In this document: positions 28,701-31,700 of the stretch, one piece after another
Position numbering within the stretch: the stretch's first letter is position 1
Layout: the number at the start of each line of letters is the position of its first letter
Source of the DNA: Tubiluchus corallicola
Lineage: Eukaryota > Priapulida > Priapulimorpha > Priapulimorphida > Tubiluchidae
Direction of reading: 5' to 3'
NCBI GenBank assembly: GCA_030141605.1
Contig: JAQGDQ010000250.1
Span: forward strand, 248,001-312,000
DNA: 64,000 nt
Notes under the pieces: generated by a model
What the model was told of the DNA's origin: nothing
Database searches by the model: none
What the model saw: the letters and a program-made list of their open reading frames with translations, nothing else
Made by a program: the position numbers and the translations under genes

Positions 28701-31700
28701 ATTAAGTTGCAATAAAATTGCACCTGAAGAAATTATGAAATTTTATTGAACATCATCTTGAACAAACATAACATGTTTTTGATGTCTCAAAATTGAAATT
28801 GGAGAGATATCATATATATAGCAACGCTTTTCTTTTTGATACCTTATTAAAGTGCCCCAACATGAACGAGCGTCTAGACAAGACATGTACAACTGAATGG
28901 TCTCTTGTTTAAATTTCTGTATATCTTTCAGATCCGACTCCAAGTTGGTGTTTTTGTGGCTAACAAAGATCTGCATAAGTTTCAGTAGCTCCTCGACGGC
29001 CTAAAAATCAGAAAAAAAAGTTCTAACAGAAAGAATTAAAACTAGTCTCTAGTCTCAATAATTTTCTACTCAATGATGCTAATGCTTTCTAGCAAAAATA
29101 CAACAAACAAAACATCGTAAACGAAGACACACCTGTCATAACAAACAATACACATGCATGCAGTGCAGATGCATCCTAGGGCAAAACCAGTAGTAATGCA
29201 TAATTCATATAAATCTCACGTCTTGCAACTGCTTATAGTATTGTTATTGCTGCAGCTTCGGTATTGTTGAATTGGTCGTTGCAAATGTAAAGTTATAATG
29301 TGATTTTCAATAACCATTAGTTTACCACAATTGCTTAGCACTTCATAGTAGCACAAAATGACAAATACAAAATTCAGTACAGTAGACTTACGACTTATTA
29401 TGACTGTTCAACTTTAAGATAGGAGCACAACTTAATTAATTATGTAAAACTAATTAACTCATATTTCTTTATACTCATTATTTTTCAAACAAATTAACTT
29501 TAAATTAAATTAACTTTAAATTGCCATCTGCTTCGATAAACTTGTCCGTAGGTGCAGCGATACTTAGTGCGCAGACACATGCGCACAATGTATTATGCAC
29601 CGCTTGAATATACGGGTCTGATTTACGACCAGTACGTCTTACGACCAATCGACCAAAGCCAATCATGGTCGTAAGTCGATGACTACCTGCATTTAGTAAA
29701 AAAACACTTTTTTCAAAACACTCACACACGACAATAATGTCGCTTGCTAGAAAAGTTTCCACATAGCACTACCACATTTAATAAAGTGCGACAGTAAACA
29801 GGAATAGGGTTCTCTACACTATACCTAACACTATTCTGCAAGACTTCATATACAAAAAAAATGTGCAAGAAAAATACGAACACTTACTGCGCAGGAACAT
29901 TATTGTAATCGCCTCACCTTAGGATATCTAGTTGAATAAGTACTGATGTTTTTAAATGCCCACTGTATGTTCTGGTGCATGGCTAGGTAGCGAGTGAATG
30001 AAATAGACTGTTCACAGCACAGACGCAGCAAACCGTAATACGCCGGTAACATCATGCGATTGAACATGACGATTTCTTGGTCGTCGTGATCGGCTCTGCA
30101 ACAAAACCGCGATCATTTTAAACTAAGTTCTGCAACAAAACCGCGGTCATTTTAAACTAAGTTCTGCAACAAAACCGCGATCATTTTAAACTAAGCTCTG
30201 CAACAAAACCGCGATCATTTTAAACTAAGCTCTGCAACAAAACCGCGAACATTTTAAACTAAGCTCTGCAACAAAACCGCGATCATTTTAAACTAAGCTC
30301 TGCAACAAAACCGCGATCATTTTAAACTAAGTTCTGCAACAAAACCGCGGTCATTTTAAACTAAGTTCTGCAACAAAACTGCGATCATTTTAAACTAAGC
30401 TCTGCAACAAAACCGCGATCATTTTAAACTAAGCTCTGCAACAAAACCGCGATCATTTTAAACTAAGCTCTGCAACAAAACCGCGATCATTTTAAACTAA
30501 GCTCTGCAACAAAACCGCGATCATTTTAAACTAAGCTCTGCAACAAAACCGCGATCATTTTAAACTAAGCTCTGCAACAAAACCGCGATCATTTTAAACT
30601 AAGCTCTGCAACAAAACCGCGATCATTTTAAACTAAGCTCTGCAACAAAACCGCGATCATTTTAAACTAAGCTCTGCAACAAAACCGCGATCATTTTAAA
30701 CTAAGTTCTGCAACAAAACCGCGATCATTTTAAACTAAGTTCTGCAACAAAACCGCGATCATTTTAAACTAAGTTCTGCAACAAAACCGCAATCATTTTA
30801 AACTAAGCTCTGCAACAAAACCGCGATCATTTTAAACTAAGCTCTGCAACAAAACCGCGATCATTTTAAACTAAGTAAATTACAACCCTGTCAAAGAACA
30901 GACAAGCTATGACACTATAACAAAAACTACGGTTTCTCAACAATCAATGTATATGTTAGTAAGCAAAATGCCAATAATCTTAAATAAAAAAGGCTAACTT
31001 TTTTAGAGCCAAGGTTTCGGTGTGTGTGTGTGTGCGTGCGTGCGTGCGTGCGTGCGTGCGTGCGTGCGTGCGTGCGTGCGTGCGTGCGTGCGTGCGTGCG
31101 TGCGTGCGTGCGTGCGTGTGTGTATGTGTGTGTGCGCGTGCGTGTTGAGAATCAGTCTCATTTCTATGATCAATCATTGACCTTCAATTACGATCGATTA
31201 TTGACTAATGATCAATCATAACATTCTGTAGAGTTGTCTCAGCGTAAAATATTATATTGGAACATTAACTGCCTCATCATTATCATTATATGCCCATTAA
31301 GTCAACTGTAAACACAGGGCAGGCAGAATTCTAGAATCAAAGAAAACAAGACAGGTAAGCACAGATAATTAACTGCCTGTTGTTTCACTCCTGTGCCTCA
31401 ATATGAGAAATCAGTAAAAATGTGACAAAGCGACAAGTGCTGTGCAAAGATATCCCATATTAAACCTTGCTGTAAACGCTACTTCAGTGTTGATCATCGG
31501 CATTTTCTTTTGCTATGTAACTGTTCTATTTGTATAATTTATCGTGTAGAGTCATTAAAATATTTTACTAACAACATTTGTTGCTATTGACACTGCAATT
31601 AAACGGCAGCAACAAGTGGCAAAGTATGTAAAATCTTACACTTGTTGTAGTAAGCAATAATCGATTATGTTAATTTATGATCGAGCACTTAGAAGTTTTA

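Follow-up and report, generated by a model that had tools for sequence, protein, structure and literature searches.

A candidate mirage minisatellite carrying 23 copies of a 3′ splice site in USP34

Results

A 3′ splice site is repeated 23 times in tandem at the end of one intron of USP34, within the 64-kb stretch of contig DNA that we analysed (the window). We put at about 0.8 the probability that this array is a mirage, that is, a minisatellite that grew from one tandem duplication over an intron-exon junction and has been tolerated without a dedicated function. TRF and unit phasing place it at 30093..30875 on the minus strand, with the acceptor TTTTGTTGCAG closing each unit; the period is 34, with 23.0 copies, 97% matches, 0% indels and a score of 1482, the highest TRF score within the window. 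On the minus strand every unit (23/23) ends in TTGCAG, and the spacing of this motif is 34 bases in 22/22 steps, its last G moving from 30844 to 30096; the original prediction of 23 perfect-length 34-bp units with the same acceptor was thus confirmed. When the array is phased as (CTTAG...GCAGAG) x 23, it is flanked by ATTTA on the left and by CCGATCACG on the right, and each unit consists of 32 intronic and two exonic bases (three if the shared edge C is counted). The final copy is itself the acceptor of exon 30095-29918, and the tandem repeat crosses the intron-exon boundary in exact phase, though the exonic share is small. A possible branch point, a T-rich tract and an AG lie inside every 34-base unit, and all 23 acceptors are near-identical locally.

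The units differ at a few sites: G34A is found in seven units, T16C in two, and C17T, G20A and A15T in one each, and TTTTGTTGCAG is free of all of these in the 23 units compared. We considered whether selection maintains this acceptor core, and five variant sites are too few for a verdict. The unit type that combines T16C with G34A occurs as units 16 and 22, both preceded by a G34A unit; this recurrence at a six-unit lag is a thin hint, from a single match, of block exchange.

The intron that carries the array (30096..32012, minus strand; the array makes up approximately its last 780 bases) joins exon 32119-32013 to exon 30095-29918. The upstream exon (32013..32119, minus strand) ends in phase 2 (..FNYI CT), and the downstream exon (29918..30095, minus strand), which has the last unit as its acceptor, starts ..ADHDDQEIVMFNRMMLPAYYG. 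The junction therefore runs from 32013 to 30095 and not, as first proposed, from 32119, which is the exon's own acceptor end; all other coordinates held. Joining exon 32119-32013 to the upstream copies produces a third-codon stop in 22/22 cases, as CTA GCT TAG or CTA ACT TAG, and joining it to the true acceptor at 30095 leaves the frame open, with a junction protein, NYI-L-ADHDDQE, that we take to be conserved in USP34. The 34-bp unit has stops in all three frames. At the level of sequence, then, the earlier claims stand that every upstream copy leads to a third-codon stop and that use of 22 of the 23 acceptors would disrupt the frame. A 59-bp direct repeat (30963-31021 and 31925-31983, 88% alike) has its two copies close to the ends of the part of this intron that lies outside the array.

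The identity of the gene was assigned from its catalytic-domain exons (45288..50385, minus strand), which match PDB 7w3r (Ubiquitin carboxyl-terminal hydrolase 34) with an E-value of 2.4e-155, the next entry being at 3.1e-52, and Pfam UCH at 6.6e-49; these matches identify the gene as USP34. In the 343.5-Mb assembly (GC approximately 34%), the two junction exons occur once among the best-scoring candidates, with no second haplotype or processed copy found among them, and a two-unit query of the 34-bp repeat matched this array only, again among the best-scoring candidates. A mobile element was rejected as the source, because, among the best-scoring candidates, the unit is not dispersed but is found at this one locus, and the gene is found once. 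No Rfam family matched within the 64-kb window at the gathering score. COX1 had no match in this assembly, although its control was positive in 8 of 14 genomes; mollusc haemocyanin had none either, but neither did its controls, so that this second negative carries no weight.

Arrays in this region affect boundaries of both types: 3′ boundaries at 30095 and 32119, and 5′ boundaries, one at 57488 and one in a neighbouring gene. Before exon 32119, an older, degenerate array with units of approximately 41 bp (32193..32373, minus strand) repeats the acceptor and the first ~29 bases of exon 32119-32013. Its acceptor-like sites at 32320, 32279, 32238 and 32198 have scores of 5.4-9.1, below the 9.8 of the real acceptor, and the use of any of them leads to a stop (4/4). 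When the ~41-bp units were compared with the exon start, two of the six beat all 2000 shuffles, and the remaining four were equalled by 14, 37, 130 and 412 of 2000 shuffles, the latter two units having no clear exon-start match. The mirror case is a tandem 5′ splice-site array of nine GGTGAG donors approximately 35 bp apart (57201..57491, minus strand), at which the USP34 exon at 57488..57682 (minus strand; ..ERLVIPRLSQ) ends. The first GGTGAG is the exon's own donor, any of the eight later donors adds GTG AGA TAA (VR-stop), and most units read like a 3′ site that runs straight into a 5′ site, for example TATTATTATCAG followed by GTGAGA. The donor of exon 42098-42033 is covered by a weak repeat with a 22-bp period (41955..42044, minus strand), whose repeat score was equalled by 12/196 decoys; the two later copies observed have the sequence GAGATATG and lack GT.

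A neighbouring coiled-coil gene, which is presumably angiomotin-like and for which Pfam gave no match above the cut-off, carries an array of ~52-bp units that repeats an exon end and donor (L011:2086-2746, or C1598:220086-220746, minus strand); the array comes after an exon ending in LQK, and 11 unit motifs were counted by pattern. A further array of 31 bp x 21.6 (L012:5563-6231, or C1598:213563-214231) lies approximately 50 nt upstream of a predicted minus-strand exon; it does not cross the boundary, and each of its units holds an acceptor-like T-rich AG on the minus strand. A 42-bp array in L024 was considered as a donor array and set aside, as there was no convincing open exon beside it.

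Are exon boundaries a preferred target of such repeats? Minisatellites are abundant: 17 arrays were found in 181.6 kb of contig, and 13 in the first 40 kb of another contig (C100; L021-L024, C100:1-40000), 5 kb of which is N. On the latter, a 39 bp x 31 minisatellite reaches the end of the 40-kb stretch. Our exon list was built with a predictor of our own, which used a hand-set matrix and seed exons picked by eye; from 73 chained exons, 14 that were repeats or doubtful were removed by hand and 59 were kept. We took the plus-strand exons predicted over the contig array at 161935-162425 to be artefacts of the repeat itself. Of the 17 arrays in the 181.6 kb, two have an edge no more than 5 nt from a boundary predicted on the minus strand, against 0.42 expected (P 0.066). 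Self-similarity of at least 30 was found at 3/118 predicted boundaries and at 10/461 splice-like decoys (7/265 acceptor-like and 3/196 donor-like), a decoy set from which the arrays and other repetitive stretches were left out (Fisher p 0.73). Because the edge test gave P 0.066 and self-similarity was not enriched, we do not claim that boundaries are targeted; boundaries no richer than decoys are what would be expected if minisatellite growth were blind to splicing. The plain reading is that this genome is rich in minisatellites and that some arrays land on splice sites.

We scored acceptors with a simple hand-set matrix. The true acceptor of the 34-bp array scores 4.52 and the other 22 score 4.29 to 5.51, and the true site lies slightly below the median of the 59 predicted acceptors (5.24). 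Besides the 22 upstream copies, the decoys in this intron include lone acceptor-like sites that outscore the array, at 30887 (7.0), 31330 (7.1) and 31305 (6.0). Since these lone decoys score higher and the array sites are nearly equal, local sequence alone is insufficient to account for the choice of acceptor, which is likely to be steered by exon sequence and exon length. Masking of the decoy acceptors by RNA structure was rejected, in that the last units and exon start were not clearly more stable than shuffles (z -1.37; 20/200 shuffles equally stable). In the available text of a study of a human minigene library, the first of two equal donors was mostly used, and two equal acceptors showed no order preference (PMC6783452). 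As far as that text goes, the preference for the first donor suits the array after 57488, because the first donor there is the productive one, and the lack of order preference among acceptors argues against a simple positional rescue at 30093-30875, where leakage is possible. By analogy, some splicing to upstream array copies is plausible.

Discussion

How might this array have arisen? The exact phase and edges of the repeat indicate that the stretch duplicated at the start consisted of the last 32 bases of the intron and the two (or three) bases that open the exon. Slippage or unequal exchange may then have raised the number of copies to 23. Such an array would be tolerated because the copy adjacent to the exon stays intact, with productive splicing taking place mainly there, presumably aided by the exon sequence and by a donor 178 nt downstream; wrong joins would run into an immediate stop and presumably be removed by nonsense-mediated decay. 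The array itself would have no dedicated function.

Comparable structures have been described in amphioxus as mirages, in Adh3, the globins BflGb6 and BflGb9, troponin C and PGBD5, and in the available portions of these reports they are said to leave splicing undisturbed (PMC3087553, PMC3902484), with no aberrant mRNAs for the Adh and troponin C mirages (PMC3902484). As those portions describe them, the amphioxus mirages resemble the present array in that tandem repeats, with units of 10-160 bp, straddle an intron-exon boundary, whether 5′ or 3′, and in having homogenised copies with splice signals that could be misused. They differ from it in three respects, within the same portions. First, there are 23 near-perfect copies here, against six and three units in the two haplotypes of BflGb6 and one duplicate in BflGb9. 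Second, each unit here includes only two to three exonic bases, fewer than in the globin mirages. Third, several arrays are found here in one gene, USP34, unlike in amphioxus. In addition, at 343.5 Mb and approximately 34% GC the present genome is a poor fit to Branchiostoma and is probably not that of an amphioxus. The array would belong to a known kind, the mirage minisatellite, and is notable for its copy number and for this probable host outside amphioxus. Within the open-licence PMC literature, a search by title and abstract found no tandem splice-site array outside amphioxus.

Other known systems are less similar. NAGNAG tandem acceptors also present adjacent competing 3′ splice sites, but there the sites are separated by 3 nt and the choice between them alters a single residue. 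The copies here have stops in every frame and are spaced by 34 nt in every step rather than by three bases, and we rejected this class. Intronic VNTRs that alter splicing are repeats of variable length within an intron, and they share with this array an intron repeat with a possible effect on splicing; there, however, the repeat lies inside the intron, whereas here each unit is itself a splice site. In recursive-splicing (ratchet) sites, a 3′ site is joined to a 5′ site, as in most units of the array at 57201-57491, although these units are in tandem, approximately 35 bp apart and adjacent to an exon.

The original prediction went further and proposed that the upstream acceptors compete with the true one and that the wrong joins are destroyed, so that more copies would mean less productive USP34 mRNA and changes in array length would adjust the dose. 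The third-codon stop in 22/22 upstream joins and the near-identity of the 23 sites would agree with such competition, as would the lack of an order effect between equal tandem acceptors that the available text reports for human minigenes (PMC6783452). However, the amphioxus analogues are reported in the portions available to be spliced normally (PMC3087553, PMC3902484), the same intron holds lone decoys with higher scores, and like arrays occur at other boundaries without enrichment. There is thus no support for a level of USP34 mRNA that falls proportionally as copies are added, and the similar arrays in USP34 and the neighbouring gene fit non-specific minisatellite growth rather than dose tuning; we regard this proposal as very improbable. 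Quite improbable, too, is the extended proposal of a heritable, fast-mutating dial, in which the copy number of the USP34 acceptor and donor arrays would set the productive share of mRNA and individuals or cells would differ by array length.

It might also be supposed that the array helps splicing, the repeated branch point, T-rich tract and AG gathering factors and thereby strengthening a weak acceptor. Each 34-base unit does hold these candidate elements, and the true acceptor scores 4.52 against the median of 5.24 for the 59 predicted; nevertheless, no such role is needed for donor arrays or for those that lie off the boundaries, and the last units and exon start showed no unusual RNA structure (z -1.37, 20/200 shuffles), which leaves this explanation very improbable. 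The array has been seen in one assembly, and a globin mirage was mis-assembled in an amphioxus draft, according to the available text (PMC3087553), but the units carry distinct variants, both flanks consist of unique sequence, coding and intronic, there is no N in the window and the exons occur once among the best-scoring candidates. An assembly artefact is thus highly doubtful, and of its two forms an incorrect number of copies is more probable than an array that does not exist.

We return to the reading of the array as a tolerated mirage. So understood, it is a natural competition experiment, in which 23 acceptors are alike over 34 bases and one is productive, and it raises the question of what beyond local sequence selects a 3′ splice site; the nine tandem donors in USP34 pose the mirror question for 5′ splice sites. 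If the genome is not that of a lancelet, mirages would extend beyond the published amphioxus cases. The array is a real curiosity of genome evolution, and its role as a regulator is unproven.

Other features of the window

A match to TTTAAAATGATCACG at 57102 and a two-mismatch match at 47983 were followed, and neither gave a lead. The next gene downstream of USP34 (10804-16644, minus strand) carries the motif GDGNCFFRAFGFNY, by which we take it to resemble an otubain (OTUB1-like) deubiquitinase. The window also contains dispersed repeats that are 70-76% alike (32935-33596, 54656-55326 and 13562-13992, and also 37076-37355 and 51974-52239), which are perhaps transposon remnants.
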